Positions 29,949 through 47,699 of a DNA stretch of 64,000 bases are shown one piece after another. Both the position numbers and the translations under genes were made by a program. The stretch comes from Sulfuriroseicoccus oceanibius (lineage in GTDB: Bacteria; Verrucomicrobiota; Verrucomicrobiia; Verrucomicrobiales; SLCJ01): contig NZ_CP066776.1 of assembly GCF_010681825.2 (NCBI RefSeq), positions 2,976,001 to 3,040,000 of the forward strand, written 5' to 3'. Positions within the stretch are counted from its first letter, which is position 1. Every line of letters begins with the position of its first letter. Below the pieces are notes generated by a model. That model searched no databases. It had not been told where the DNA came from and was given only the letters and a program-made list of their open reading frames with translations.

Positions 29949-30263
29949 TTACGGGTTCAGACTGGTCCAAGGGATGTCAAAGAAGTGCCAGTTGGTAAGC
30001 GCCATCACCGCGGCGAAGAAGACCGCCGAAATCACGAGGAAGAAATAAATCAGCTTCTTCTCATGATTGAGGTGCATGAAGATCGCCGCCACGCAGGTGG
30101 CCTTGACCGACGCAATCACCAGACCGACGAAGATGTTCATCGCGTGGCTACCAAAGTGGTACTTGGAAACCGCAACGGTCAGCACGGTGAGCACCATCAG
30201 AATGCCGCCCACGATCATGTAGGCTTTGACGTGCTTCTTAACTGCTTCTGGACTTTCTGCCAT
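29949..30263 (-). CDS. coxD: Cytochrome c oxidase subunit IV (prokaryotic type)
   Basis: 104 residues with three membrane helices (about residues 14-33, 43-63 and 72-93). The order (VKAYMIVGGILMVLTVLTV, FVGLVIASVKATCVAAIFMH, LIYFFLVISAVFF) and the K-A-x-x-V-A-x-x-F-M-H signature are those of the prokaryotic subunit IV. ATG at 30263 chosen (MAESPEAVKKHVKAY); an upstream extension is open but lacks family similarity. Lies 48 bases after coxC. Confidence 0.88.
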   Translation of the reverse strand: MAESPEAVKKHVKAYMIVGGILMVLTVLTVAVSKYHFGSHAMNIFVGLVIASVKATCVAAIFMHLNHEKKLIYFFLVISAVFFAAVMALTNWHFFDIPWTSLNP

Positions 30264-30311
30264 AGGAGTAGATGTGAAGATTAAAGATACGAGGGACGGG
30301 CCCAAATTGGA

Positions 30312-31892
30312 TTACAGGAGGTAAAGAACTGGGAAGAGGAAGATCCACACCAAGTCCACGAAGTGCCAGAACAGACCGCCGACTTCGACTCGGTTGGCGA
30401 GGTGGTCCGGATCCCGCTCGTACATCTTCTTGCCGGTGAAGAGGAAGTAAGCGAGAACGATGGCGCCGCCGATCACGTGCAGAGCGTGGAGACCGGTAAG
30501 CAGGAAGTAGGTGGCGTAGTATGTGTTCAAGCGCGGGGTGAAGTAGGACGAGAAGATGACGTCCTTGCGCTCGAGCTCGACGACTGGGAGGCCGTGGTCA
30601 TCGAACTGCTGGTCGCCGTGGGCTTCCGCGTGGTCGTGACCGAGCTTGAGGTAGTAGAGCTGCTTGGCGACGAGGTGTGCGCCATTGGCTTCCTTCTCAA
30701 GAGCAGCATCGTACTGCTTTTTCCACTGCTCATAGAGGAATGGCTGCTCCTGGGCAAATCCGGACGCTTCGATCTTGGCGAGCATTTCGTCGCGATCGTA
30801 CTCGTTGGCAACTGGCGAGAGACCACGCAGGTCGACACCGTCCACGCTGAGGATCAGCTCACTTTCGTCGGCGACGAACTCACCTTCGACGGTGGTACCA
30901 TCGCTGAAGACGAAGCCTTTCTCGGTCCAGCCGGTGTCGCGGTTACGCACGGTGGCGAGATCCACGGAGAGGTTCGGGTTGGCAGGGTCGAGCACGAGCG
31001 TGGTGCGCTCGGCGAAGAACAAACCGAGGACCTGAGCTTCGGCCTTTGCCTTCTCCAGAGCGTCGACCAGTTCGCGGTCGATGTTGGTCACGCCCTCTTC
31101 TTCGAGGCGGGTGATGGTTCCGGCCAATGCGCGGCGGTCATTCTCAGCGCGGAGGTGGCGTTCACGCACATCGCGCTGGGCGTCGAGCAACTGCTCCAAC
31201 TGCTTCCAGTCGGTGAACTCGAGTTCGACTTCCTGGGCGTCCAGGGATTCGCCATTGAGCACATTGGCGACGAGAGGATCGGTCACCTTGTCACCCGCAT
31301 TGGCAACGACCTTGCCGTCTTTGACCGTGATGCCGACATCGCCCACAGTTTTGACGGTGAGCTTGAGCTTCGAGCCTTCGCCGAGGCTGTCGGTGAGGTA
31401 GCTCACGTCGCCGCCGTCGAGAGGCAGCACAGCTTTGGTGCCCTTGTAAACGATATCGGTGTGATCTTCGTCCTTGGCATTCGGGTCGTGGAATGCGTGC
31501 CCCTCGTAGACCACGCCGGTGGTGGTCTCAGCCGAGATGTGACCGAACTTGGCCTTGTACTCGACAGTCTTGATGCAGCAGAACGCCAGCGCGCAGAGGA
31601 TGGTGATCGCCATGTACAACTTGAAGCGACCGAACTGGCGGAGCTTCAGCGAGGCGTGCGCCATCACGACGGTGATCGACGAGAAGATCAGGACGAACGT
31701 GTTGGTAAGACCCAAGCCGATGTCGAGCATCTGGTCAGGCCACGGGTAATCCGCGCCGAGACGCAGGAAGATGTAACCGGAGAACAGACCACCGAAGAGC
31801 ATGACCTCCGAGGCGAGGAACAACCAGATACCGATCTTCGAGTTGTAGAGACCGGTGTCAGGACGAGGTTTTACGTTGAACGGAATTTCCAT
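30312..31892 (-). CDS. coxC: Cytochrome c oxidase subunit III with large soluble insertion
   Basis: 526 residues, about twice the usual length. Residues 1-116 hold three helices of the subunit III fold ([20 protein letters not shown] is characteristic) and residues 444-526 hold the last two ([20 protein letters not shown] and a [15 protein letters not shown] end). Between them lies about 320 residues that are normally absent: a His/Asp-rich start, beta-type stretches ([19 protein letters not shown]), a charged coiled-coil region ([20 protein letters not shown]) and a C-terminal helical part. The start at ATG 31892 matches the usual N-terminus. The insert is in frame with uninterrupted reading and similar codon use. 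Confidence 0.9.
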
Positions 31893-32011
31893 GATGGAAG
31901 TGAGGGAGGAACCAGAACCTGGTCGGGTTGATAGGCGTTGTCGGCGGTTATCTGGCAATCATGCCGGTGATTGGCTGCGTCGAACGCGAAATGGAATTAG
32001 GGAGTTGGGAC

Positions 32012-33850
32012 TTACTTCTTGTTCGATTTAGGCTCTTCCCACTGAGGTGAGTAGTCCTTGTCTTCTCCTGGCACGGAGTACTCGTATGGTCCGCGATAGA
32101 CGACCGGCTCGAACTCGAAGTTGCCGTGGCCCGGAGGCGTTGGGGTGGCCCACTCGAGGGTGGTGGCGTTCCACGGGTTGTCGGACTTCACCTTTTTACC
32201 CACGAAGGCACTCGAGAAGAAGTTGATGATGAATGGGAGCTGGAAGATTGCCAGTGCCCAGACCGCCCATGAGATCACCTCGTTGAGCCAGAGGTAGTCA
32301 GCGGTGTGCTCGTAGGAGATACCACCGTTGTACCAGCGGCGGTGGAAACCTGCGATGCCCTGAATCATCATCGGCATGAACACGACGTTGATCGCGATAA
32401 GCGATGGCCAGAAGTGCAAGTGACCGAGGAATGTGTTCATGTGACGGCCAGTCGCCTTAGGGTACCAGTAGTAGATACCGGCGAAGAGACCGAAGATCAC
32501 ACCAGGAGCCACCACGTAGTGGAAGTGGCCGATCACGTAGTAGGTGTCGTGAAGGTAGAGGTCGGTCAGGTTGAATGCGAGTGGCAGACCGGTGAGACCA
32601 CCGAATCCGAACATCGGAAGGAACGCGCACGCCCAGAGCATTGGGACGGTGAAGCGGATCGATCCACCCCACAGCGAGATGAGGAGCGAGGTCAAAAGGA
32701 TGACCGACGGCACCGAGATCAGCACGGTAGTGGTTTGGAAGAAGGTCGAGATCGCGCTGCCCATACCGGTGAGGTACATGTGGTGCGCCCAAACGATGAA
32801 CGAGAGGAACCCGAGGACGAGAGCACCGTAGACCATGCTCTTGTAGCCCCAGAGCGGCTTACGGGTGTTGTTCGGAATGATCTCCGCCACGATCGAGATC
32901 GCAGGAAGGAGGAGAACGTACACCTCAGGGTGACCGAGGAACCAGAAGAGGTGCTGGTAAAGCAATGGAGAACCACCGCCGGAGATGTTCATCACTTCGT
33001 TGTTCACCGAGAGGCCGGATGGCAGGAAGAACGACGAGCCGAAGACGCGGTCCGAGAGCTGCATCAGACCAGCCACTTCAAGTGGTGGGAAGGCGAGCAG
33101 GAGAAGGAATGCGGTGACGAGCATGCCCCACACGAAGAATGGGAGGCGGAACCAGGTCATGCCCTTGGCGCGCAGGTTGATGATGGTGGTGATCACGTTC
33201 ACCGATCCGAGGAGCGACGAAGAGATGAGCAACACCATACCGAGGAGCCACCAGGTCTGACCAGTCATCCACTGGTTGGCGACGTGGTATTCCTGAACGG
33301 TGCCAAGCGGCGGGTAGAAGGTCCAACCGGTCGAGGCAGCGCCCGATGGAAGGAAGAACGATGCGAACATGAGCAGACCACCAGCGAGGTAGATCCAGTA
33401 GCTCATCATGTTGAGTTTCGGGAATGCCATGTCCGGCGCACCGATCTGGAGCGGTGTCACGTAGTTACCGAAGGCACCGAAGCCGAGAGGCACCACGGCG
33501 AGGAAGACCATGATCGTTCCGTGCATGGCACCGAACATATTGTAGAGCTGGCCGTCAACGACGCGTCCGCCGGTCGATTCACCGACAGGGATCCAGCGGT
33601 TGAGCCAGTCTTCACCGAATACGAAGGTGAGCCATTCTGGCAGTGCCTGGTCGGGATAAGCGATGCTCCAGCGCATCACCATCATGAGGAAGAATCCGAC
33701 CAACATGAAGAGCATCGCGGTGATGCCATATTGGATCCCGATCCACTTGTGGTCGGTGGAGAAAATGTATTTTCGCACAAACCCGACGTGGTGGTCGTCA
33801 TGGTGGTGATCCGCGGCGTCAGCCGTTTTGTGATGAGTCGAATCGGACAT
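32012..33850 (-). CDS. coxA: Cytochrome c oxidase subunit I (aa3 type)
   Basis: 612 residues with 12 or more helices. All key residues are visible: the low-spin heme His in MFGAMHGTIM, CuB and cross-link site HPEVY (with the D-channel Glu), WAHHM carrying two CuB His, and YYVIGHFHYVV with both heme His. It therefore belongs to the A1-type heme-copper oxidases that reduce O2 and pump protons. The N-terminus is His/Asp-rich (DAADHHHDDHH), a possible metal-binding extension. It lies between the cupredoxin gene and coxC. Confidence 0.97.
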   Translation of the reverse strand: MSDSTHHKTADAADHHHDDHHVGFVRKYIFSTDHKWIGIQYGITAMLFMLVGFFLMMVMRWSIAYPDQALPEWLTFVFGEDWLNRWIPVGESTGGRVVDGQLYNMFGAMHGTIMVFLAVVPLGFGAFGNYVTPLQIGAPDMAFPKLNMMSYWIYLAGGLLMFASFFLPSGAASTGWTFYPPLGTVQEYHVANQWMTGQTWWLLGMVLLISSSLLGSVNVITTIINLRAKGMTWFRLPFFVWGMLVTAFLLLLAFPPLEVAGLMQLSDRVFGSSFFLPSGLSVNNEVMNISGGGSPLLYQHLFWFLGHPEVYVLLLPAISIVAEIIPNNTRKPLWGYKSMVYGALVLGFLSFIVWAHHMYLTGMGSAISTFFQTTTVLISVPSVILLTSLLISLWGGSIRFTVPMLWACAFLPMFGFGGLTGLPLAFNLTDLYLHDTYYVIGHFHYVVAPGVIFGLFAGIYYWYPKATGRHMNTFLGHLHFWPSLIAINVVFMPMMIQGIAGFHRRWYNGGISYEHTADYLWLNEVISWAVWALAIFQLPFIINFFSSAFVGKKVKSDNPWNATTLEWATPTPPGHGNFEFEPVVYRGPYEYSVPGEDKDYSPQWEEPKSNKK

Positions 33851-33936
33851 GGTAGTTTCTCGTCGTGACTAAGTAAATCTAGGAATCGAACTATGCAGAA
33901 TATCAAGCGCGACGCAAGGTACGCTCTCGGGAAAGT

Positions 33937-34821
33937 TTACCCGTTTTGATGCGCAGGCAGCATGGCCTGTGATGCATCGAACTCGAAATCGAGCTCAGCG
34001 GAGCCCCCGGTGATGCGCAGGCTCTTGCGCAATGGCTCAGCAAACTGGCTGTGCCAAGCGATCACTTCGTAGTCGCCATCAGGCAACTCTCCGTGGATCG
34101 CAAAGGTTCCGTCCTCCTGGGAGACGGCGTAAAATCCGGAGTCGTGGACATAGACCCAGCTCCTCATCCAGCGGTGCAGGTCGCACTCGACGCGGTACAC
34201 ACCCGCGGCCGGAAATTTGTGCAGATTCGTCGAATCAGCGGGCTGGCCGTAATTCTTGATGCTCGCACCTTTATCGAAAGTTCCCATCTTGTGCGCATCG
34301 ATGCGCACGTTGTGGAAGGTTTGGTCGGAGTTTTTAAAGACGACTCCCTCGCCAGCAGCGACGGCGACCACGTGTGGGTCGTAGCAGCAACCCGCCTGGT
34401 CCATGAAGGCAGGACGTGGGTCGACCGATCCGCCGGACTGCCCGACAATTGCGATCACCACGTCGGCGAGCGCCTTGTTCTCCCCTACCGACCAGTTCTG
34501 AGTCTTGATCGGCTGGTACTTGCTGCAATAGCGGTCATTGCGCACGTCCCACTCCGAGTCCGGAGTTGGAACCTCACCGGCGAGGGTTACGCGTCCGGTG
34601 AGAACCACAGGTGCCGTGGCGATGACGTCGGCGGAACGCAAATCGTTGCCGAGATCGACATCGGCGATGGCGACGGTCTCGCCACTCCCTCCCCCGCAGG
34701 ATGCGGCGAGCATCACAGCGCAAAGCGCGCCCCCGAGACGGGAAACCCGACTCGAGAATGCGCGCTGAGTGATGGATGCGAGGGTTGTCATCGTGCCGGG
34801 GCGAACAATCGGAAATTTCAT
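33937..34821 (-). CDS. Cupredoxin-domain lipoprotein
   Basis: About 294 residues from ATG 34821 (an ATG at 34836 sits in a hairpin loop; one at 34791 is also possible). A lipoprotein signal ends LAASC-GGG. The central domain has a type I copper pattern: FHNVRIDAH, then C-D-L-H-R-W-M (C-x2-H-x2-M). The C-terminal part is a carboxypeptidase-regulatory-like beta domain (TFAIHGELPDGDYEVIAWH). Being next to coxA, it could carry electrons from alternative complex III to CuA, but this is inference. Confidence 0.82.
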   Translation of the reverse strand: MKFPIVRPGTMTTLASITQRAFSSRVSRLGGALCAVMLAASCGGGSGETVAIADVDLGNDLRSADVIATAPVVLTGRVTLAGEVPTPDSEWDVRNDRYCSKYQPIKTQNWSVGENKALADVVIAIVGQSGGSVDPRPAFMDQAGCCYDPHVVAVAAGEGVVFKNSDQTFHNVRIDAHKMGTFDKGASIKNYGQPADSTNLHKFPAAGVYRVECDLHRWMRSWVYVHDSGFYAVSQEDGTFAIHGELPDGDYEVIAWHSQFAEPLRKSLRITGGSAELDFEFDASQAMLPAHQNG

Positions 34822-34822
34822 G

Positions 34823-34845
34823 CGGGGGTGAGTCATTCACCCCCG
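34823..34845 (-). terminator. Intercistronic hairpin before the cupredoxin gene
   Basis: Perfect 9-base arms CGGGGGTGA and TCACCCCCG around a 5-base loop, with no T run after it on the minus strand. It lies between the ccoP-like stop and the cupredoxin start, so it may be a processing, stability or partial-termination hairpin rather than a full terminator. Confidence 0.55.
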
Positions 34846-34859
34846 GAATTATTTCATGA

Positions 34860-35630
34860 CTAAGCAGCCGGAGCTTCCTCGGCGGCTGGTGCCGCACCGA
34901 GAGGCTGACCGGTTTGTGGGTCAACCGCAGCGCCAGGAAGCATCTTGTCGTGGTTTGCGTTGAGCTCCTCGGCGGTCATCTGGGCACCGGCACGCTCTGC
35001 GGAGATGTCCATGGCAGCTTGTGCCATTTCTTCCGAGACCCAGTCATCGGTCTCATTACCGAAGCTCTTACGGACGTAGTTCATGACAGCAGCGAGGCGC
35101 TCGGCATCAGGCACGGCGCTGGCCTGGGAGGCCATGTTGTTGCCGGACCACACTTTGCCGTGCACTTCGATCGGGCCCTTCACACCGTTGAGGATGATCA
35201 TGGCGAGACGTTCGGTGCTTCCGGTCACCCACTCCGAGTTGGCGAGTGGTGGAATGTTCTGACCCGCGTCCCCTTCACCACCGGATTTGTGGCAACCACC
35301 GCAGCTGACGTAGACCTTTTTACCAAGGTCCATCTGCTCGACGCTCCATGGCTTGACCACGGTCTTACCACCCAGACGTGGGTCCGGAGCAGGCACATAA
35401 CCAACCGCAGTGTACTTAGTGAAGTCGAAGCCGCCGGTCATTTGACCGTAGTAGGCACCGCCGAAAAGCAGGATCAATGCGCACAGGAGGAAGAGCGCGA
35501 GCGAGACCGGATGGGTGCCGCTGATTGGCTCCTCTTTCTCACGAGCGGTGATCGAGTGCTGCTTCTGGATGTCTTGGCCCTCGCGGTAATCCGCTTCGGT
35601 CTGGCGATCTTTGTTGGATGAGTCTCCCAT
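34860..35630 (-). CDS. Membrane-anchored cytochrome c, CcoP-like
   Basis: 256 residues starting at ATG 35630. A charged N-terminal region of about 45 residues, one membrane helix (VSLALFLLCALILLFGGAYY), then a single cytochrome c domain with heme motif CGGCH near residue 110 and a likely Met ligand in NNMASQA. CcoP normally has two heme domains; this has one. The C-terminus is Ala/Glu/Pro-rich. It lies 60 bases after the ccoO-like gene. Confidence 0.85.
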   Translation of the reverse strand: MGDSSNKDRQTEADYREGQDIQKQHSITAREKEEPISGTHPVSLALFLLCALILLFGGAYYGQMTGGFDFTKYTAVGYVPAPDPRLGGKTVVKPWSVEQMDLGKKVYVSCGGCHKSGGEGDAGQNIPPLANSEWVTGSTERLAMIILNGVKGPIEVHGKVWSGNNMASQASAVPDAERLAAVMNYVRKSFGNETDDWVSEEMAQAAMDISAERAGAQMTAEELNANHDKMLPGAAVDPQTGQPLGAAPAAEEAPAA

Positions 35631-35688
35631 CATTGGATGTAGGTGATCGAGATTCTAGAAATAGGTGGGAATTGGCGCGGAGCCGGAA

Positions 35689-36330
35689 TTACTTGGCTTC
35701 CTCTTCTTCGGCGGCAGGAGCCACTGGCGCGTCCTTGCGCAAGTTGACGAGGTAGCTCACGAGAGCTTCTGCGCGGTCGGTTGGGACCACTTCGTAGCCT
35801 TCCTCGACTTCAACAGGCAGCGCGTCGGCCGACTGCTGGCCCTGGATGCGACGCTTCTCGAACAAGTGCTTGTACGATGGCATGTTCGACCATTCGGCAA
35901 CCGAGCGTGGGTTGTAAAGGTGAAGCATGAGCTGCTGCTTTGCATCTTCGCCGTTGTAACGGATGTAGAGGTTCGAGAGGTCTGGACCGATGCGCTGCAC
36001 ACCGAGAGCGGCGTACTTTTCACCGTGATAGTCCTGAGGCACGGTCTCGCGTTCTTCGCCTGGGATGACCCAGCCATCACGCCAACGGTCAGGACCGGCG
36101 TACGTTGGGCGGATCATTTGCGAGTGACACTGGACGCAGCCCTCCTGGGCGTAGACACGGGCACCAGCGGCCACCATGCCGGCACGGACTTCCGGATAAA
36201 CGGATCCGTCAACGTCATCGACGAGTGTGGTGTCGAGTTTACCAATCTCACCGTATGGCAGCGCCACGAAGAATACCCATGGCAGTGCGAAAGCGGCGAT
36301 CAATCCGAGATAGAATGTGCGGACGGACAT
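35689..36330 (-). CDS. CcoO-like membrane cytochrome c
   Basis: 213 residues with an N-terminal membrane helix (LGLIAAFALPWVFFVALPYG) and a monoheme domain with CVQCHSQMIRP near residue 65, the hallmark of CcoO. RIGPDLSNLYIRY and NMPSYKHLF complete the family pattern, the latter giving the Met ligand. It follows the CcoN-like gene, as in ccoNO operons. Electron transfer role is expected. Confidence 0.9.
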   Translation of the reverse strand: MSVRTFYLGLIAAFALPWVFFVALPYGEIGKLDTTLVDDVDGSVYPEVRAGMVAAGARVYAQEGCVQCHSQMIRPTYAGPDRWRDGWVIPGEERETVPQDYHGEKYAALGVQRIGPDLSNLYIRYNGEDAKQQLMLHLYNPRSVAEWSNMPSYKHLFEKRRIQGQQSADALPVEVEEGYEVVPTDRAEALVSYLVNLRKDAPVAPAAEEEEAK

Positions 36331-36389
36331 AGTGGATCAGGTCTGGAAAGTAGAAGTTGAGGAGGAAAAGGGAATGAATCAGATCGGGC

Positions 36390-37871
36390 TTATGCCTGGC
36401 TGGAGCTCTCTTTGGCGCGGTCGTCGAACATAGGCTGGTCGAGCTCGTGCACTTCGTGGAGAAGGGTTGGCGAACCGGCGCGGCGTCCTTGACCGAACAC
36501 CATGACCCAGAGGTTGAGAACGAACGAGAAGTTCGCCATCAGCAACATGGTCCAACCGATGAGCTGGCCGATGTAGAATGGCTCGGCAGCGTCGACGATC
36601 TTCTTCCAGGATCCGTAGAGCATGAACTCTGCATTGCCCTGCCAGAAGCCGCCCACTGCAAGTGTCACCACCAGGATCAGGATCGAGTAAACGGTGAACC
36701 AGAAGTGGAAGCGGATCGAGCGACCCGATGGCCATTCGCAACCGCAAAGACGTGGCACGATGAAGTAGATGGCACCGAAGCCGGCCATGGTGAACACGCC
36801 GAGCAGCACTGCCACGTGGGTGGAAAGCACCGCCTGGGTGAGACCAGCGTACTTCGAAAGGGTTGGGATTCCGCCAAGTGCGTTGAGCACGGCAGCAAGG
36901 AAGAGCGCCACGATCGAGGCGTAGGCGAAGCGCAGGGTGGCGCTGTAGTTCACCATGCGGAAGCGGGCACCGAGGGTGGCGTGCACGTTGACCAGAATCA
37001 TCAACGCAGGGATGAGGATCACGATGCCAGCCGCACCGGAAACCGCAGGCATCCAGGCAGGAAGCGGAGCACCGAGCAGACGGTGGAGACCGGTCCAGCC
37101 ACCGAGAAGGATCAGCGCCCAGAACGAGGCGAGCGCCAAGCTGTACGAGAAGATCGGGCGACCGCTCACCTTAGGGATGAGGTAGAATGCCGCAGCTGCT
37201 GCGATTGGCAGGAAGAAGAGGAACTGCACACCACCGATGTACCAGTAGTTCACTGCGGTCGAAACCACGGCAGCACTTGGTGCCATGTGGATGAACACAT
37301 TGGCAGTGAGGAACAAGGCTGGGAATGCGAAGAGCGCAGCCACCAGGAACCAGAGCGACACGAAGGTCTGCGGTTGGTCACGCTGGGTGAATGGAACAAA
37401 TGCCCACAGAGCGATCACAATGTACGCTACGAGCAACGCAGGGCCGACCTGTTTAGGGAACTCAAGCCATTCAACACCGCTGCCAATGCCGCCGAAAACG
37501 CAGAAGATGCCGATGGTCAGAGCGATGTTCCAGAGGTGACCTGCAATGTTCGGGACCAACGAGTGCTTCATTGGCATACGGCACAAGCGGTGCATCATCC
37601 AAAGGATCACACCGAAGGCCAGGTTGAACCCGAGACCGTAAACCATGGCCAGCGTGTGGGCCGACTGGAGACGTCCGTATTTGAATGCAGGGCAATCACC
37701 GAAGGCATCCGGAGACAGCAAGGTCCAGGTCGACATCAACCCGAGGATGATGGTCGCCAGGAACCAGAACCCGGCGCTGGTGAAGAACAACAGAACCGGC
37801 CAGCGCACCGAGCGGTCGATTTGGGCTCGGAGGTTGGTCAGATCTTGATCGGATGCGATGGACGAACTCAT
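36390..37871 (-). CDS. CcoN-like heme-copper oxidase subunit I without copper-site residues
   Basis: 493 residues with about 12 helices and clear CcoN similarity (FYLIPKVSGRPIFSYSLALA, SFWALILLGGWTG, GAIYFIVPRLCGCEWPSGR). The first heme His is kept (GRLQSAHTLAM). Where active CcoN has WYGHNAV this protein has WYIGGVQ, where it has PHHLHY this has LHRLLG, the cross-link Tyr position is Gly, and HVH has become THVAV. So at least two of the three CuB His and the Tyr are missing and it cannot be a normal oxygen-reducing subunit. It may serve as a heme-bearing membrane electron conduit or scaffold with the CcoO and CcoP-like proteins. Confidence 0.85.
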   Translation of the reverse strand: MSSSIASDQDLTNLRAQIDRSVRWPVLLFFTSAGFWFLATIILGLMSTWTLLSPDAFGDCPAFKYGRLQSAHTLAMVYGLGFNLAFGVILWMMHRLCRMPMKHSLVPNIAGHLWNIALTIGIFCVFGGIGSGVEWLEFPKQVGPALLVAYIVIALWAFVPFTQRDQPQTFVSLWFLVAALFAFPALFLTANVFIHMAPSAAVVSTAVNYWYIGGVQFLFFLPIAAAAAFYLIPKVSGRPIFSYSLALASFWALILLGGWTGLHRLLGAPLPAWMPAVSGAAGIVILIPALMILVNVHATLGARFRMVNYSATLRFAYASIVALFLAAVLNALGGIPTLSKYAGLTQAVLSTHVAVLLGVFTMAGFGAIYFIVPRLCGCEWPSGRSIRFHFWFTVYSILILVVTLAVGGFWQGNAEFMLYGSWKKIVDAAEPFYIGQLIGWTMLLMANFSFVLNLWVMVFGQGRRAGSPTLLHEVHELDQPMFDDRAKESSSQA

Positions 37872-37919
37872 GGTGAATGGAGAATCGAATGAAAGTCGGG
37901 GAAGGAAAATGGGGCGGGC

Positions 37920-38447
37920 TTACTGGTCGGCAGCTGGGGCTTCTTCAGCGCTCTCAACAGCGGCTTCTTCGGTAGCGGCAGGCTCGTCGGTCTGATCCGC
38001 TGCAGGGGCGGCTGCTTCATCAGCAACTGCTTCTTCTTCGGCAGGCTGCTCGTCAGTGGCAGGCTCGGCATCGACAGGAGCCACTGGCTCGGCAACCGGA
38101 GCTTCTTCCACGGTTGCGGCTTCGCTGGCCGGGGTGTGAACCGATGGCTTGCTGGTGAGCAACTGCTGACCGAACACTGGGAGGTAATCCCCCATTGCCG
38201 GCTGGACCAACCCCTTGCCTTCGTCGAGCCACTTGGTGGTACCGATCACCTGGGCGGCATTGGCCTCGATGGCCTCGCGCTCGGCGATACGCACCGCCGA
38301 CTGCTCGCTGAGGTAGTCGTCGACCGTGCTACCACGGAAGAAGAAGTACGCAACGATGGCGAGGGCGGCGAAGGACAGGAATCCGGCGATGCCCAAAACG
38401 AAGGCGGCGATCGGATGGATCGGCTTGCTGGCGGATGATTCGGTCAT
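37920..38447 (-). CDS. Membrane-anchored protein with acidic Pro/Ala-rich tail
   Basis: 175 residues. One N-terminal membrane helix (IAAFVLGIAGFLSFAALAIVAYFFF) followed by a conserved-looking region of about 60 residues and then about 75 residues of Ala, Glu and Pro low-complexity sequence. It lies between actF and the CcoN-like gene with short gaps. A structural or assembly role in the respiratory complex is inferred from position alone. Confidence 0.7.
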   Translation of the reverse strand: MTESSASKPIHPIAAFVLGIAGFLSFAALAIVAYFFFRGSTVDDYLSEQSAVRIAEREAIEANAAQVIGTTKWLDEGKGLVQPAMGDYLPVFGQQLLTSKPSVHTPASEAATVEEAPVAEPVAPVDAEPATDEQPAEEEAVADEAAAPAADQTDEPAATEEAAVESAEEAPAADQ

Positions 38448-38507: not shown

Positions 38508-39944
38508 TTAGTTGTGCAGGTTGATCGACTCGAGGAGGCGTGGGTCGCGGCATGGGAACAAGCTGTCCTTGCGCAACGAGAAGAGGAACGCGCCAACCAC
38601 AAGGCAACCGACGGTCACCACAGCGAGCAGGTCGTAAAGCACCCCACCCTGGTAGAAGTAATTGTGAGCGACCAGTGGCCCACGCATTGGGATGATCATC
38701 AGGTAGACGTCGAGCAGGTGGACGAGGAGGATGTACACCGCCATCGACGAGAGCCATGCCGGCTTACGCTTGAGCCACGACTGGAGGAGGATCACGAATG
38801 GCACGATGAAGTGAAGCACCACGAGCGCGATCGAGAAGTAGTTCCAGAACTCCGTGTTACGGATGAGGAAGTACTTGGTTTCCTCGGTGATGTTTGCGTA
38901 CCAGATCAGGAAGAACTGGGAGAAAGTGATGTAGGCCCAGAAGACCACGAACGCGAACATGAGCTTGCCCATCACATGGTAGTGCTCGCTGGAAACGACA
39001 CCCTTCATGTAGCCTTTGCTACGGATGTAGGTGGTGGCCAGGATGATGGTTGCCATGCCCGACAATGCGGAGCCAGCGAACACATACACACCCCACATGG
39101 TGGAGAACCAGTGGTGGTCGATCGCCATCACCATGTCGAGAGCGACGAAGGTCATCGCGAGGGCGAAGATGATCATGAAACCACAGGCGGCGCGGCGCAT
39201 ACGGAAGGTCAGCTTGACGCCACCTTCGCTGTCCTGACGAACCGACCACTTGCGCATCTGGCGGATGACGTAGGTGAGCAGCACGAAGAACGCGACGTAG
39301 CGGATGTACCAGAAGGTCTGGTTGAGGTAGCCCTTCTTGCCGTAGAGGATTGGGTCCTCTTTTTTGATGAGCTTACCTTTGATCTTCGAGGCATCGAAAT
39401 CACCGAGGTTCTCGATCTCTTTCTGTGCGAGCTCGGCTTCCGCGGTGTTGCCAGCGGCTTCAGCAGATGCCTTGATGGCGGCGAACTCGGCAACGTGCGC
39501 GTTGTGCTTGGCTTCGAATTCCGCGATCACCTCAGGCTGCTCGGCCTTGGCTCCCAAACGGTCTTCGATTTCAGTCCAGTGCCACAGGGTGTGCTTTACC
39601 GGGGTGATGGTGAACAATGGGATCATCAGGATACCCACGACCGGGATCACGAGACCGACCTTTTCGAACACGCGGCGGACAGCAATCCCCCACCCCGAGT
39701 TGGTGGCGTGGTGGAGCAGCGTCCAGAAAACACCTCCCACCGCGATGGTGAAGAAGAAGAACGTGCCGAGCAACCACGAGAAGGAGAATGCCTTCTGCGT
39801 GCCTTCGTTGAACAAGAAGAACAAGCTGGCGACCAAACCGATGCCGCCAACTGCCAGCAATCCGGTCGCCAAACGCGAAACCTTGCTGAAGTCGAAGCGC
39901 TCACCGTTGAGCGGAAGTTCTTTCAGATTGATGTGACCTGCCAT
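38508..39944 (-). CDS. actF: Alternative complex III quinol-oxidising membrane subunit ActF
   Basis: 478 residues, about ten helices, of the NrfD-related ActF type. Helices such as FSWLLGTFFFFTIAVGGVFW and MTFVALDMVMAIDHHWFSTM match the family; WYANITEETKYF and the end PMRGPLVAHNYFY are also typical. It contains an acidic soluble loop of about 75 residues (residues 125-200). With ActC it forms the membrane part that binds menaquinol. It follows actE by 38 bases. Confidence 0.92.
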   Translation of the reverse strand: MAGHINLKELPLNGERFDFSKVSRLATGLLAVGGIGLVASLFFLFNEGTQKAFSFSWLLGTFFFFTIAVGGVFWTLLHHATNSGWGIAVRRVFEKVGLVIPVVGILMIPLFTITPVKHTLWHWTEIEDRLGAKAEQPEVIAEFEAKHNAHVAEFAAIKASAEAAGNTAEAELAQKEIENLGDFDASKIKGKLIKKEDPILYGKKGYLNQTFWYIRYVAFFVLLTYVIRQMRKWSVRQDSEGGVKLTFRMRRAACGFMIIFALAMTFVALDMVMAIDHHWFSTMWGVYVFAGSALSGMATIILATTYIRSKGYMKGVVSSEHYHVMGKLMFAFVVFWAYITFSQFFLIWYANITEETKYFLIRNTEFWNYFSIALVVLHFIVPFVILLQSWLKRKPAWLSSMAVYILLVHLLDVYLMIIPMRGPLVAHNYFYQGGVLYDLLAVVTVGCLVVGAFLFSLRKDSLFPCRDPRLLESINLHN

Positions 39945-39982: not shown

Positions 39983-40696
39983 TTACTCGGCTGCGGCAGC
40001 CGAGGTGGCGAGGTCGGCTTCGACGGCCGACTTGAGGCCCGGTGTGTCGATCGAGACACCGGCGTTGACGTTCTGGAGGGCGCGGACGTAAGCGACGACG
40101 GCCCAGCGCTCACGGATGGTGAGCTTGTCGGCGTAGGACTTCATGAGGCCCTTGCCATTGGTGATGGTTTCGTAAACGCGACCATCGGCATATTCGTCAG
40201 CGGAGAATGCAACCTGGTGCAGGTTGGCAATCGCGGCCCAGCCACGCTTGGCAATCATGCCCTGGCCGTCGCCGGTTGGGCTGTGGCAGATGGCGCAGTA
40301 GATACCGTACTGCTCTTCACCGAGGCGAAGGAAGGCGTCCACGTTCTCAGCGGTGAGCCCGAGTTCCTCTGGCATGCCGGTTCCGTAGTCAGTACCGATC
40401 TTACCGGTGGTGTAGTAGTTCTTCTCGGTGGTCGAGAACGCGCGCTGCTGGATGGCACCGTCTGCGGCGAGTTCGTCCGGAAGGTGGTAGCCCATTGGCA
40501 CTGTGGCGTCGACTGGAAGACGGGCACCGCGGCCGTCAGCGAAGAACTTGTTGTCCTTCTGGGCCTTCACTTTGGCCTGCTGGTCCATGTCGTTGAACAC
40601 CTGGATCGGCGAGTACTCCATGATCTGACCGCGGAATCCGAGGACACCGACAGCCGACAGAGCGACGAGGATGAATGCTAGAAAAATGTAGCGCAT
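39983..40696 (-). CDS. actE: Alternative complex III monoheme cytochrome c subunit ActE
   Basis: 237 residues with an N-terminal signal or anchor (IFLAFILVALSAVGVLG). Characteristic start of the mature part is FNDMDQQAKVKAQ. Heme motif CAICH near residue 132 and candidate Met ligand in LMKSYADKL. It carries electrons from the ActA/ActB part towards the terminal oxidase. The C-terminus is Ala-rich. In cluster order actA to actF. Confidence 0.92.
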   Translation of the reverse strand: MRYIFLAFILVALSAVGVLGFRGQIMEYSPIQVFNDMDQQAKVKAQKDNKFFADGRGARLPVDATVPMGYHLPDELAADGAIQQRAFSTTEKNYYTTGKIGTDYGTGMPEELGLTAENVDAFLRLGEEQYGIYCAICHSPTGDGQGMIAKRGWAAIANLHQVAFSADEYADGRVYETITNGKGLMKSYADKLTIRERWAVVAYVRALQNVNAGVSIDTPGLKSAVEADLATSAAAAE

Positions 40697-40753: not shown

Positions 40754-41311
40754 TTAGGAAAGCTGCTCTTCGACGAGCTCGATATCGGAGCCACCGATCT
40801 CAGAGAGGAACTCGCGGGTTTGCTCGCGGTTGAATCGCGGGTCACGCGCTTCGATAGCGATGAAGAAGCCGTCGTCGGTCACGCGCTTGAACTGCTCCGA
40901 CTCAAAGAGTGGGTGGTTCATTCGTGGCAGCTGGCTGAGTGCCAACATTCCGAACAACGTGGTGAAAGCGGAGAATAGAACGGTCAACTCGAAGGTCACC
41001 GGGAAATACGCCGGAATCGTGAACAAGTTGGTCGGCTTGGCCTGCACGATGGTCGGGTAAAGCGCCACCTGGGTGCCGAACTGGAGTGCCAGAGCGGTAA
41101 GCGTTCCGGTCATACCACCGAAGAACACGAAGAATGGCAGCTTCGAGCGGCCGAGTCCCATCGCGGCATCCATGCCGTGGATTGGGAAGGACGAGTAGGC
41201 GTCCCACTTTTTGAAGCCCTTGTCGCGCACTTTGGCAGCCGCCTTGTAGAGGTCGGTCGGAGTTTCGAAGCGGGCGAGGTAGCCGTAGACTTTTTTGATT
41301 CCTGTCTTCAC
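40754..41311 (-). CDS. actD: Alternative complex III subunit ActD (DUF3341)
   Basis: 185 residues. The N-terminal soluble part has the ActD signature (YGYLARFETPTDLYKAAAKV, then DAYSSFPIHGMDAAMG) and is followed by two membrane helices (about residues 59-80 and 96-123). The C-terminal part is soluble. ActD is a structural membrane subunit. It lies 50 bases after actC. Confidence 0.93.
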   Translation of the reverse strand: MKTGIKKVYGYLARFETPTDLYKAAAKVRDKGFKKWDAYSSFPIHGMDAAMGLGRSKLPFFVFFGGMTGTLTALALQFGTQVALYPTIVQAKPTNLFTIPAYFPVTFELTVLFSAFTTLFGMLALSQLPRMNHPLFESEQFKRVTDDGFFIAIEARDPRFNREQTREFLSEIGGSDIELVEEQLS

Positions 41312-41361: not shown

Positions 41362-42876
41362 TTAGCAGTTACCTCCAGTGCGCTTGCCGGTGATGACTTC
41401 GCCATCGGCCTCGTAGCACTTGGCGCCTGCGGCTTTCTTGGCTTCTTCCATTTCGTCGTGGTGGACGTTCGACGAGAGGAGTGTCCACTTCACTTCCGCG
41501 ATGTTCACACATGGGAGGAAGCGGAGGAAAAGCATGAACAAGGCGAGGAACATACCGATGGTTCCGACGAAGGTCATGACGTCGACCGGCGATGCCGAGT
41601 AGTACTGCCAGTCACCTGGGAACCACATGCGGGCCAGGGTGGTCACGATGATCACGAAACGCTCGAACCACATGCCGATGTTGACGAGCATTGCCACGCC
41701 CATGACGACCCAGAGGTTCTTACGGCACTTCTCGAACCAGAAGAACTGAGGCGAGACCACGTTGCAGAACATCATCACGAAGTAGGACCATGCGTATGGG
41801 CTGTCTTCGTCGGCACCGATACGCTTGGCGAATGCGGCCCACTCGAACTTGTTCTGACCGTACCAGGCGATGAAGAGCTCCATCAGGTAGGCGTAACCAA
41901 CCAAGCATCCGGTGAAGGCGATGATCTTGGCCATGTTGTCGATGTGCTTCATCGTGATCAGGTCCTCAAGACCGAAGATCTTACGAGCTGGCACCATCAT
42001 GGTAAGCACCATGGCGAATCCACCGAAGATCGCACCCGCCACGAAGTATGGTGGGAAGATGGTGGTGTGCCAGCCCGGCACAACCGACGTTGCGAAGTCG
42101 AAGGAAACGATGGTGTGCACCGAAAGCACGAGTGGGGTCGAGAGAGCTGCGAGGAGCAGGTAGCACATCTCGTAGTGGCGCCACTGGCGGTTGCCACCGC
42201 GCCATCCCAGAGCGAGCACGCCGTAGGCGAACTTGCGGAACTTGTTCTTCGCACGGTCACGGATCGACGCCAGGTCAGGCACCATGCCGATGTACCAGAA
42301 GATCAAGGATACGGTGAAGTAAGTCGAAACCGCGAACACGTCCCAAAGAAGCGGCGACTTGAAGTTCTGCCAGATGGCGTTCGCGTTTGGAATCGGAGCC
42401 AGGAACCAAGCCATCCAGACACGGCCCACGTGGAATGCCGGGAAGATACCCGCGCAGCACACCGCGAAAATGGTCATCGCTTCCGCAGCACGGTTAATCG
42501 AGGTTCGCCAGTTCTGACGCGTTAGGAAAAGAATCGCTGAAATCAGCGTTCCCGCGTGACCGATACCAATCCAGAACACGAAGTTCACGATCGGCCATCC
42601 CCACATCAGCGAGTTGTTGTTGCCCCAGACACCGACACCGGTGGAAACGAGGTAGGTCAGACCACCGCCCACGCCGAGAAGCGCGATGATTGCGGATGGA
42701 ATGAAGATGATCCACCACAGCAGTGGCATGCGGTTTTCAACGATGCCGCAGATGCGGTCGGTGATCCATGCGTAGCTGCGGTTGTTGAGGATCAGTTCCT
42801 CGCGTTCGAGCACCTCGAGCTGAGGTTGCCCGGCGCTTGCGGTAGCTGAAGATTTGGCGGTGGTTGCGTCTGCCAT
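41362..42876 (-). CDS. actC: Alternative complex III quinol-binding membrane subunit ActC (NrfD/PsrC family)
   Basis: 504 residues with about ten helices. The N-terminus [20 protein letters not shown] and the helices [20 protein letters not shown] and [19 protein letters not shown] are diagnostic for ActC. The protein forms the quinol-binding and proton-conducting membrane half of the complex with ActF. A non-conserved N-terminal 17 residues are Ala/Ser-rich. The C-terminus is Cys-containing and hydrophilic. Confidence 0.95.
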
Positions 42877-42955: not shown

Positions 42956-45900
42956 TTAGTGAATGCTGACCGTTGCGTTGCCGATGAACTTGGCGTCAGG
43001 CATGAGCTTGTTCGGGTTGCGGACACGCGCCAGGTAGTTGGTGCGTGGACGGGTGCCGATGTAGCGCAGCAGGTCGTACGAACGTGGGTGCTTGAGGATG
43101 ATCTCACCACCTGGCTCGTCGTTCTCGAGCTGCTTGAACTGGTGCAAGCGGGACTTTGGATCAAGCAGGTTGCCGAAGACGATTGCCTCCGATGGGCAGG
43201 CCTGCTGACACGCGGTCTTGAGTTTGTTCGAGTCGACGCGCAGGTCGTCGGCGCTGACACTGAGTGTGTCCGACGGCTTGCCGGTGACCAGTGCCTTGTC
43301 GCGGCGGATCGAGGTCTTCTCGATCTTGGCGAGCTGGGTGCGCTGGATGCAGTAGGTGCACTTCTCAATCACACCACGCATGCGGACCGACACGTTCGGG
43401 TTCTTACCAAGCTTCTCGGACTCTGGCTTGCCGGTGCGATCCTTGTCGGAAAGCGGGCCGCTGTAGAGCTGGTCGAGTGGGCGCTTGTTGTAGTCGAAGT
43501 AGTTGAAGCGACGTGCCTTGTATGGGCAGTTGTTCGCGCAGTAACGGGTACCGATGCAGCGGTTGTACGCCATCAGGTTCATCCCCTCTTCCGAGTGGAC
43601 GGTCGCGTTCACCGGGCAAACGGTCTCACATGGAGCGGACTCACAGTGGACACATGCAACCGGCTGGACAAGCATCGCCGGGTTGTCTTCGTCCGCCATC
43701 TCACCGTGGTTGGTGGCGCGGTCAACGAAGTAACGGTCCATGCGGATCCAGTGCATCTCACGGCCGCGGCGGACTTGCTCCTTACCGACGATCGGGATGT
43801 TGTTTTCCGACTGGCATGCAACCAAGCACGCGGTACATCCGGTGCAGCTGTTGAGGTCGATGACCATGCCCCACTGGTGGAGCTCATCGTTCAAGAGCGG
43901 CTTGCCGCTGGCGTCGTTCGGCTTGTAAAGAGAGATGTTCTCAGGGATGTGACCGTCCATCCCGTGGTTGTAAGCAAAGCCAACCTTGTTGGTTGGGTGC
44001 TTCTCAAATTCTTTCTGGTTGTCGAGCGTGCCCTCACGGACCAAGGCACGACCAGACATGGTGCTGTGCTCCTGGGTGAGAGCGACGGTGTAGGTGTCTT
44101 CCAGCTTGGTGAGATTGGCACCACCGAGGATGAACGACTCACCGGAACGGAGTGGGTTGACGTTGAAGCCAGTCCCCTCACCCACGCGCATTGGAAGCGC
44201 CGGGGTCTCACCCTTGGCTGCCTCTGGGCACTGGCCGTAGCCGAGCTTGAGCGTGACAACGTTTTCAGCGTGACCCGATGCGATCAAAAGGGCGGTCGTG
44301 ATCTTGGCACCGCTTGGAGTGGTGATTTCCACCATTGGCACCTGCTGCTTTGAATCATCGTAGTCATCGGCGATTCCGAGAGCAGCTGCGGTCTTAGGAG
44401 CGATCAACGCAGCGTTGTCCCACGTAAGCTTGCTCACTGGATCCGGAGCTTCCTGAAGCCATCCGTTGTTGATGAAACGGCCGTCCCACACGCTGTAGTC
44501 AGCGGTGAATGCCAACTCGAGGGACTCAGGTGACGCCGCTGGCAGCATTGCAGCCTTGAGCTCGTCATCCTTCACGTTGCCCATCGCCGTACCGGTTGCT
44601 GCCGGGAACTTCGAGCCCTTGAGGAAACCATCGCGGAGGATCTTCGCCCAGGTGTTGTCTAGATCCGCGGCTGGGACACCCATTTCAACGAGCGTCTTGC
44701 GGACGGCATCGAGCGCAGGATCTGCGTCCGGGTTCTCTGCGGAGAACTCACCAGCGAGTTCCAAAAGTAGGTTCAGCTCGCTGACCGCCGCATCGTAAAG
44801 CGGAAGGATCATCGGCTGGACGACCGAGTAAACACCGCGGTTGTCGTAAACATCACCCCAGTTCTCCAAGTAATGGGTGCCAGGGATGTGGAAGTTCGCG
44901 CTGACAGCCGTCGCGTTAACGCGGGTGCCATTGTGAACGAAGAGCGAAAGCTTGTTGCGGAGGCCAGCCCAGTCGAAGTCACCAGCAGTGTCGTAAGCAG
45001 GGTCTGCAGGGGTGGTTGCGAGAAGTGTGGTCACTTCACCGCCTTCCACAGCGGCCTTGAGGTCGGCAAGTGTGCCGTACTCGTTGGCAGGAGTCTGAAC
45101 GAGCTGGACCACTGCATTCTCGTCGGAACCAACCGACCCGAGGAAGCGATTGATAGCGTCGGCGAGGACGTGCACCACCTTTGGTTGGCGCTCACCCACG
45201 AGAACGACCGACTTGGAGCCGTTTTTCTTGAGGTCAGCTGCGGCTTCCTTGATCCAGCGTGGATCGAACTCACCGGCAGGAACGTCGACCGTGATGTTAA
45301 GTCCGAGCTCCTTGGCGACCGCAGCAGCGAACGCAGGGATGCGGCCGGCAGCCACACGCACACGGTGATCAGCCATTCCGCCGGTCACGCTGTAAGCAGG
45401 CTCGGCGAGGTAGAGACGAAGCGTGTCGTCCTTGGTCTTGGCTGTGTTGTCATCGCCTTGCTCCGGCTTGCGGGCTGCGGCGAAATCGCTTTCGGTGCGG
45501 TTGTCCGGGCAATCGACTCCGAGGAAATCGCTATCGAGGGAAAGAACGCGCTTGGCGTTGCGCAGGTTCACCACCTGACGGACCCCAGCACCGCTGAGCT
45601 CATCGGCGGCTTCGCGGTTGGTACGAGCGAGTGCTTCGTATTCGAAAACTTGAAGTCCACCGAACTTCGACTGGAGCGCCTCGATCGCACGAGCGCGGGT
45701 CGGCGAGGAATTCTGACCGACCAAGAGAGCAACACCCTTACCGGCATTTGCTTCGAGAGCCGCGGTCAATGCGGCCTTGGCCTGATCGGCTGCGTCCTTA
45801 CCAGCAGGCTGACCATCGACGAGCACTGCGGACGAACGGTCCGGATCGTACATGTCGAGGATCGACGCCTGATCGAACGAGTTGGTCGCACCAACGGAGT

Positions 45901-46306
45901 TCGGGTGAAGTGGGTTACCTTCCACTTTGGTCGGACGACCTTCGTGGGTGGTGATCACCATTGGTACCGCACCATTGCCCACTGGGCGTGCGGTCGAATA
46001 AAGCAACGGACGGCCAGGAACCACCCACTCCACACTGTCGGTGTAAGGAACGAGGAAGCTCTTCGGCTTGCGGCACGATGCCATACCGAATCCAGCCAGA
46101 GCGGTCGATGCGCCCATGAACTTGAGGAACCCACGACGCGAAAGCTCGGCGTCTTCCTGGGAGTCCATCTCCGCCGCACCTGCAGGGAACTCGCGTTCCA
46201 GCCACTCACGAAACTCAGGGGTGTCCTTGAGTTGCCCCTGGCTGCGCCACGCACGTGCCGTGCCTTCAGGGTTCTGATCGACGGGATGTTCAAACTTGCG
46301 CTTCAT
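42956..46306 (-). CDS. actB: Alternative complex III iron-sulfur subunit ActB
   Basis: 1116 residues, a fusion of a molybdopterin-oxidoreductase-like part without cofactor (about residues 60-750) and a ferredoxin-like four-cluster part (about 800-1060). The N-terminus has an SRRGFLKFMGAS Tat-like signal near residue 55. Fe-S motifs are CTGCTACLVAC, CVHCESAPCETVCP, CIGTRYCANNCP and CTYCIQR with a later ACQQACP. It faces the periplasm, linking the quinol subunits to ActA and ActE. It is a typical length for ActB1/B2 fusions. Confidence 0.95.
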   Translation of the reverse strand: MKRKFEHPVDQNPEGTARAWRSQGQLKDTPEFREWLEREFPAGAAEMDSQEDAELSRRGFLKFMGASTALAGFGMASCRKPKSFLVPYTDSVEWVVPGRPLLYSTARPVGNGAVPMVITTHEGRPTKVEGNPLHPNSVGATNSFDQASILDMYDPDRSSAVLVDGQPAGKDAADQAKAALTAALEANAGKGVALLVGQNSSPTRARAIEALQSKFGGLQVFEYEALARTNREAADELSGAGVRQVVNLRNAKRVLSLDSDFLGVDCPDNRTESDFAAARKPEQGDDNTAKTKDDTLRLYLAEPAYSVTGGMADHRVRVAAGRIPAFAAAVAKELGLNITVDVPAGEFDPRWIKEAAADLKKNGSKSVVLVGERQPKVVHVLADAINRFLGSVGSDENAVVQLVQTPANEYGTLADLKAAVEGGEVTTLLATTPADPAYDTAGDFDWAGLRNKLSLFVHNGTRVNATAVSANFHIPGTHYLENWGDVYDNRGVYSVVQPMILPLYDAAVSELNLLLELAGEFSAENPDADPALDAVRKTLVEMGVPAADLDNTWAKILRDGFLKGSKFPAATGTAMGNVKDDELKAAMLPAASPESLELAFTADYSVWDGRFINNGWLQEAPDPVSKLTWDNAALIAPKTAAALGIADDYDDSKQQVPMVEITTPSGAKITTALLIASGHAENVVTLKLGYGQCPEAAKGETPALPMRVGEGTGFNVNPLRSGESFILGGANLTKLEDTYTVALTQEHSTMSGRALVREGTLDNQKEFEKHPTNKVGFAYNHGMDGHIPENISLYKPNDASGKPLLNDELHQWGMVIDLNSCTGCTACLVACQSENNIPIVGKEQVRRGREMHWIRMDRYFVDRATNHGEMADEDNPAMLVQPVACVHCESAPCETVCPVNATVHSEEGMNLMAYNRCIGTRYCANNCPYKARRFNYFDYNKRPLDQLYSGPLSDKDRTGKPESEKLGKNPNVSVRMRGVIEKCTYCIQRTQLAKIEKTSIRRDKALVTGKPSDTLSVSADDLRVDSNKLKTACQQACPSEAIVFGNLLDPKSRLHQFKQLENDEPGGEIILKHPRSYDLLRYIGTRPRTNYLARVRNPNKLMPDAKFIGNATVSIH

Positions 46307-46441: not shown

Positions 46442-47131
46442 TTATCGGTGACAGCCGCCGCAGGTCTCAGGTGGGTCAATGCGCCACTGGTCCTTCAGCA
46501 TAAGGCCAAGCTCTTCCTGGGTGAGCTGCTTGAGCTCACCGTCAACCATGACCGGCGGGTGATCCGCAGCGGTCCAGGCAAGATTGGTAACCTGCTCGAT
46601 CGGACGCAGGTGCTTCTCTGGCTCGCGGTGACACTCCAAGCACCAGCCCATGCTGTGGTTCTCGGCGTGGAACACCTTCTCCATCTGGTCGATGCGACCG
46701 TGGCAGGAAACACAGCCAATACCGCTGTTCACGTGAGCGGAGTGATCAAAGAACACATAGTCAGCAGTCTCGTGGATCTGCACCCACTCAAGCGACTTGC
46801 CGGTTTCAGCTGCATCGCGGACCACGGCGAGCGCATCGCTCTGGGTCTTCACACCAGCTTCGTGGCAGTTCATGCAGGTCGACACTGGCGGAATGTTCGA
46901 GTGGTTCGACTCGGTCACATTGCTGTGGCAGTAGCGGCAGTCGAGGCCGAGCTCACCCGCGTGCAACTTGTGCGAGAAAGGCACAGGCTGATCAGGAGCA
47001 TAACCTACACGCGTATACTTGGGCGTTCCGTAGTAGGTAAAACCCAGTGCCAGCGTAATTCCGACTACGCCTACGAAGAGGCCAATTTTAATCGGCAGAA
47101 AGTTGGAGGATCGAGGAAAGAGGTTGGCCAT
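46442..47131 (-). CDS. actA: Alternative complex III pentaheme cytochrome c subunit ActA
   Basis: 229 residues with one N-terminal membrane helix (IKIGLFVGVVGITLALGFTY) and five heme motifs: CRYCH, CMNCH, CVSCH, CLECH and CGGCH. These match the class III multiheme cytochrome of alternative complex III. It is the first gene of the cluster; a predicted Rex operator lies 22-39 bases upstream of its ATG. Confidence 0.95.
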   Translation of the reverse strand: MANLFPRSSNFLPIKIGLFVGVVGITLALGFTYYGTPKYTRVGYAPDQPVPFSHKLHAGELGLDCRYCHSNVTESNHSNIPPVSTCMNCHEAGVKTQSDALAVVRDAAETGKSLEWVQIHETADYVFFDHSAHVNSGIGCVSCHGRIDQMEKVFHAENHSMGWCLECHREPEKHLRPIEQVTNLAWTAADHPPVMVDGELKQLTQEELGLMLKDQWRIDPPETCGGCHR

Positions 47132-47150: not shown

Positions 47151-47172
47151 GCTTGTGAAATCTTTCACAAGC
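47151..47172 (-). promoter_or_regulatory. Predicted Rex operator upstream of actA
   Basis: A perfect palindrome with 10-base arms and a 2-base centre. Its inner 18 bases, TTGTGAAATCTTTCACAA (47153-47170), match the known Rex consensus TTGTGAAnnnnTTCACAA exactly. Rex is an NADH/NAD+-sensing repressor. On the minus strand TTGTGA could serve as -35 and TTAAAT, 16 bases on, as -10, so Rex binding would block the promoter. Whether a rex gene exists is not visible here. Confidence 0.75.
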
Positions 47173-47617
47173 GGATTTTTGCTCAAGTTTTTGATCAATG
47201 TTCCGAGAATCGGGACAAATCACCCGCTCCGGTCAAAATTCACGAGACAAGCCCATGAACCCACTTCGAAAACGGGACGTGCAAGGAAGCGTGGATCGCC
47301 ACTGCTTCAAGCGCTTATTTCGGATTTCTGAACATCAACGAACCGAGAACCTACAAGCAACTAAGAATCAATCAACTACGAGACTGCAAACATTGTTCCA
47401 AAGTGGCGAAAAATCACCATTCCGAGCCCCTCACGAACCAAATTCCGTCGCAACGCAGCTAGAAAATCAGACAAATCCTGGAATACGACTCAATTCCAAG
47501 CGGGAGAACAAAATACAGCAAAGCGATGACCACCCCACCCCGGCGCAATCCTAAATAAAGGCGCATTGCTAACAGCTGACCCCCAACCACAAACCAACAC
47601 CCCCAAGGCAAAAGAAA
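47173..47617. other. Intergenic region between actA and the sulfatase gene
   Basis: About 445 bases, AT-richer than the flanks. A + strand open frame covers 47198-47554 but its Gln/Asn/Arg-rich composition and lack of any start signal argue against a gene. It presumably holds the upstream promoter elements of the respiratory cluster; I see no further clear sites. Confidence 0.5.
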
Positions 47618-47647
47618 ATCCGCCACCTCCAGATGGAAGTGGCGGAT
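47618..47647 (-). terminator. Terminator of the sulfatase gene
   Basis: Arms ATCCGCCAC (47618-47626) and GTGGCGGAT (47639-47647), extended by partial pairing in the loop, followed on the minus strand by TTTTCTTTT. Confidence 0.8.
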
Positions 47648-47699
47648 CGCAAATTGAACTCACACGGCCGGCACCGAAGCCCGCCGCGAGTTGGCTGTC

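Follow-up and report, generated by a model that had tools for sequence, protein, structure and literature searches.

A probable Rex operator in front of the alternative complex III genes of Sulfuriroseicoccus oceanibius

A stretch of 64,000 nucleotides of the Sulfuriroseicoccus oceanibius genome (the 64-kb window) was analyzed and found to carry a respiratory gene cluster on the minus strand (Table 1). The cluster was identified as alternative complex III by its actABCDE gene order and by the presence of ActD (PF11821), NrfD-like, multihaem and FeS subunits. Two different haem-copper oxidase catalytic subunits, both matching PF00115, are encoded on the minus strand after the act genes (36390-37871 and 32012-33850). 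The sulfatase gene upstream is closed by a terminator-like hairpin, so act opens a new transcription unit.

Table 1. Features of the act locus, with positions in the window
Feature	Position	Strand	Basis
Terminator-like hairpin ending upstream sulfatase gene	47617..47648	-	14-pair stem with T tail
Extended dyad GC-TTGTGAAA-TC-TTTCACAA-GC	47151..47172		sequence; GC flanks kept on both sides at actA sites
Rex-type operator core TTGTGAAATCTTTCACAA	47153..47170		exact match; 41/41 order-level actA loci read outside the rex-less genus have a perfect copy in this position
Predicted act -35 (TTGTGA, first operator half)	47165..47170	-	inferred from TA-rich hexamer 17 bp downstream
Predicted act -10 (TAAATA), 17-bp spacer, near start codon	47142..47147	-	sequence
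actA, multihaem cytochrome subunit, alternative complex III	46442..47131	-	ORF; Cytochrome_C7 / Cytochrom_CIII matches; CxxCH motifs conserved
actB, TAT-variant molybdopterin-like plus FeS subunit	42956..46306	-	ORF; profile matches
actC, NrfD-like membrane subunit	41362..42876	-	PF03916
actD	40754..41311	-	PF11821 'Alternative complex III, ActD subunit', E 4e-61
actE, mono-haem cytochrome c	39983..40696	-	PF13442
actF-like membrane subunit	38508..39944	-	position and composition only; no Pfam match
Respiratory genes downstream of act: haem-copper oxidase subunits, cytochromes c, other oxidase subunits	29949..38447	-	Pfam

Sequence reading and a motif scan of the window placed the 18-mer TTGTGAAATCTTTCACAA upstream of the minus-strand actA gene. 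Including the GC flanks, the dyad is 22 bp long with 10-bp arms and a 2-bp centre. All 14 fixed bases of the Rex consensus TTGTGAANNNNTTCACAA are matched (14/14) and the site lies in the promoter region. A preliminary description of this DNA had reported an exact fit to the Rex consensus at 47151-47172, and both the fit and the extent of the dyad were reproduced. It had also set the site 22 bases before actA; the site is indeed directly upstream of the gene, but 21 bp were counted between TTGTGAAATCTTTCACAA and the ATG at 47131. No other site with up to three mismatches was found in the window. Dinucleotide shuffles of the window gave a mean of 0.28 matches at that threshold, while the actA match is exact.

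In the 3.5-Mb genome, a single contig, TTGTGAAANNTTTCACAA was matched exactly three times, and allowing one or two mismatches added no further site. In addition to the actA site, one copy is located 129 bp before atpB of the ATP synthase operon and one 102 bp before nuoD of the complex I operon. About 0.001 exact matches were expected by our estimate, which uses the 16 fixed bases and ignores composition. Three exact copies, all of them before oxidative-phosphorylation operons, are therefore not a chance result. Weak sites at 822698, 1983067 and 1708021 fell within ORFs or at their edges and were rejected as noise-like. Loose matches to TTGTGA-N6-TCACAA numbered 91 in the genome compared to 21 for the reversed control and were not counted as evidence. 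A short repeat around GACAGGATTCACA was spotted among these loose matches at several places on the contig (e.g., 439744, 1452240, 1598550, 1642033, 2365557, 2490072, 2490348 and 2790070). The window contained no copy of it.

The preliminary description had suggested searching the genome for rex and for more sites, and had named a missing rex gene as grounds for dropping the Rex reading. A single rex gene was found by profile search (C1:1615724-1616359), and the two further exact sites are those before nuoD and atpB. The product of 211 aa passed several NCBIfam equivalog cut-offs for 'redox-sensing transcriptional repressor Rex' (NF003992/NF003995), with a best E of 4e-77. It combines the DNA-binding N-terminal domain PF06971 with the Rossmann domain PF02629. 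Full-length alignments were obtained with solved Rex structures, among them 3ikt (E about 1e-43). The motif GAGNLG corresponds to the GxGxxG of an NAD(H) Rossmann domain. These are the features of a Rex protein.

The actA site is also a perfect TGTGA-N6-TCACA, the CRP/HcpR consensus, and fits it equally well, a point that was not mentioned in the preliminary description. Half-site and spacing are those of CRP/HcpR operators, and a cAMP or nitrosative-stress regulator of the CRP/FNR family might bind there. The nuo and atp sites, centred at about -52 upstream of the -35, are also placed as for an activator. No HTH_Crp_2 protein above cut-off was present in the S. oceanibius genome, however. The sole cNMP-binding protein is a single domain of 165 aa without an HTH (L034, 1639-2136, minus strand). 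The inner bases of the three perfect N6 sites are invariably AAA/TTT, which CRP does not need, and the sites track the presence of rex across genomes. A CRP/FNR-family operator was thus rejected as very unlikely despite the sequence fit.

The dyad could also be read as a transcription terminator or RNA hairpin, with T-rich DNA following it on the plus strand. It was called as terminator-like on that strand (47151-47172) and its fold had a z of -2.3. No plus-strand gene leads into the dyad, though, and the T-tail after it is not conserved. The core sequence itself, not just its pairing, is invariant in the 41/41 loci; it also recurs ahead of nuo and atp and vanishes with rex. This candidate was rejected as extremely improbable.

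The Rex site was followed through related genomes in two comparative tests. In the first, 57 order-level genomes were searched. Outside one genus, f2/g3, a perfect site was found before actA in all 41 loci read, before nuoD in 34/34 and before atpB in 28/30. Re-reading of the two site-less atpB loci revealed no site 2-3 kb further upstream. At actA the core was invariant across loci while the flanks drifted, apart from the GC kept on either side. In genus f2/g3, which is probably Akkermansia, rex was absent from all 14 genomes. No site was found in its actA (0/11), nuoD (0/14) or atpB (0/14) loci, where the best matches were 4-7 mismatches off. Among genomes sampled across the phylum, 17 from f2/g3 had neither rex nor any exact match with the N4 spacing. 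G220, from another genus of the same family, had rex and seven exact sites. As judged from these sequences rex and its sites were lost jointly on a single branch, since both are missing in f2/g3 and both are kept in G220.

The second test covered 80 actA loci from another genome collection, of which a few genomes had also been in the first test. Two classes of loci emerged: 35 carried the site with 0-1 mismatches, whereas the best match in the other 45 had 5-9. Fifty genomes were checked for rex, which was found in 24/24 site-positive genomes and above cut-off in 6/26 site-negative ones (Fisher p 5e-9, uncorrected for relatedness). Across the genomes compared, the actA site implies rex and rex does not imply the actA site. 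Three incomplete assemblies (77-86%) had sites present and no rex found. Both rex and the site at actA were present in Chthoniobacter flavus, which lies outside the order, so that the association of site and gene probably predates the order. The reading of the site as a Rex operator, already proposed in the preliminary description, gained support from the rex gene, the two partner sites and this co-occurrence.

The three exact copies in S. oceanibius front alternative complex III with its oxidases, complex I and ATP synthase. Relatives with scattered nuo genes (G006, G009, G013 and G220) had most of their further exact sites directly before units led by nuoB, nuoD, nuoF, nuoG or nuoH. The seven sites of G220 include those at atpB, nuoD, nuoG, nuoB, actA and NDH-2. 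The targets of the predicted operators are thus tied to NADH oxidation and energy metabolism: act with the oxidases, nuo, atp and, in G220, NDH-2. Exact N4 sites with no obvious respiratory target were seen at L228 (G009:C17, site 2000), L220 (G220:C12, site 1992) and L232 (G006:C24, site 94). Nearby genes included an rpsL-like ORF, a secreted DUF1080-like protein and a membrane-peptidase-like ORF.

At actA the site would cover the predicted -35 and the spacer. TA was found at +5 after the site in 18/41 loci and the start codon followed 18-35 bp past the site in nearly all. A strict sigma-70 scan found no promoter at the predicted act -35/-10. Downstream of the nuo and atp sites come 7 bp (52/62 loci) and then TTGC, with a TA-rich -10-like block 16 bp past the TTGC hexamer. 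The centre of these sites would fall near -52, upstream of the predicted -35. This fixed layout of site, 7 bp, TTGC, 16 bp and TA-rich -10 recurs across families (L125-L154, L095-L124) and may be useful as a Verrucomicrobial promoter model.

Known Rex proteins are bound to DNA at low NADH/NAD+ and are released as NADH rises (PMC5355995, PMC5317091). From them we infer binding by Rex, the response to NADH and the sign of control. The actA dyad is very probably the operator of an NAD(H)-sensing Rex that is encoded elsewhere in the genome and represses at low NADH/NAD+. Since complex I and ATP synthase have identical operators in front of their operons, the predicted regulon is a compact one devoted to oxidative phosphorylation. 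At low NADH/NAD+ a Rex dimer would bind TTGTGAAA-N2-TTTCACAA, and at actA it would lie over the predicted -35 and spacer and keep RNA polymerase off. With a build-up of NADH, NADH-bound Rex would release the site and the complex III and oxidase genes would be transcribed. Through the identical operators complex I, complex III with the oxidases and ATP synthase would be switched on together. Because the same site occurs at act, nuo and atp where Rex is present and is gone where Rex is absent, the respiratory chain as a whole is probably set by one redox sensor.

At nuo and atp, where the site lies upstream of the predicted -35 and not over it, repression by simple occlusion is harder to see. 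Rex might bind these two promoters as an activator or weak modulator and repress only at act. The fixed distance from site to -35 at nuo and atp, compared to the overlap at act, agrees with this, as does the overlap of the Streptomyces nuo and atp sites with the -35 (PMC5355995). In Streptomyces, Rex is nevertheless reported to repress both nuo and atp (PMC5355995), and opposite signs along one chain would make poor physiological sense. Activation or weak modulation at nuo and atp is accordingly considered unlikely.

The rex promoter of S. oceanibius did not contain the standard 18-bp site. A dyad scoring 11/14 matches or better was present in 32 of the 59 rex loci examined, and in 25/32 of these the half-sites were 2 bp apart rather than 4. 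The peak at 2-bp spacing was missing from shuffled rex loci. The resulting 16-bp dyad often adjoins the GTG start codon, as in TTGTGAAATTTCACAA, which stands just before the GTG (L092, G048 and other rex loci). S. oceanibius and its genus mate had instead a 28-bp form, TTGTGAAAAA-N8-TTTTTCACAT (L001, 1378-1405), one helical turn longer than the standard site. It is conceivable, though doubtful, that Verrucomicrobiales Rex reads spacing as well as sequence. The 18-bp N4 sites would then serve the respiratory chain, and the contracted 16-bp N2 site at rex (28 bp in the S. oceanibius genus), with the same half-sites, a weaker or different autoregulation. At nuo and atp Rex may on this idea act from upstream of the -35 and not by simple occlusion. 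No description of the contracted rex site was found in the literature searched.

If the Rex reading is correct, a single NADH sensor would govern the entire aerobic chain (complex I, alternative complex III with its oxidases and ATP synthase) in a large environmental group. Alternative complex III would join the known Rex targets, and the comparison would point to what the Akkermansia-like genus lost on giving up Rex. With so few sites, all of them perfect, the regulon lends itself to testing in a relative that can be cultured.

Ravcheev et al. 2012, as cited in PMC5317091, reportedly collected Rex regulons by comparative genomics, in which a low NADH/NAD+ ratio brings repression of genes for NADH oxidation. 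These regulons have the same consensus and logic as the S. oceanibius set. In the literature outside that source, no prior report was found of Rex in Verrucomicrobia, of Rex with alternative complex III or of Rex in connection with operator spacing. Alternative complex III as a predicted Rex target is apparently unreported. Rex control of nuo and atp is already known in Streptomyces. Rex of Streptomyces avermitilis represses atp, nuo and cyd and binds ndh2 via the same motif, and its footprinted sites at nuoA1 and atpI overlap the -35 (PMC5355995). The regulon of S. avermitilis and Streptomyces coelicolor (atpIBEFHAGDC, nuoA-N, cyd, ndh2 and rex-hem) shares the 18-bp consensus and regulator family with S. 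oceanibius. The nuo and atp targets are common to both and NDH-2 is shared with one relative, G220. Unlike Streptomyces rex-hem, S. oceanibius rex is without the standard 18-bp site. In Streptomyces the sites at nuo and atp lie over the -35, but in S. oceanibius they are found upstream of the predicted one. The S. oceanibius sites are perfect whereas those of Streptomyces carry mismatches, and complex III in S. oceanibius is the alternative complex and is itself a predicted target.
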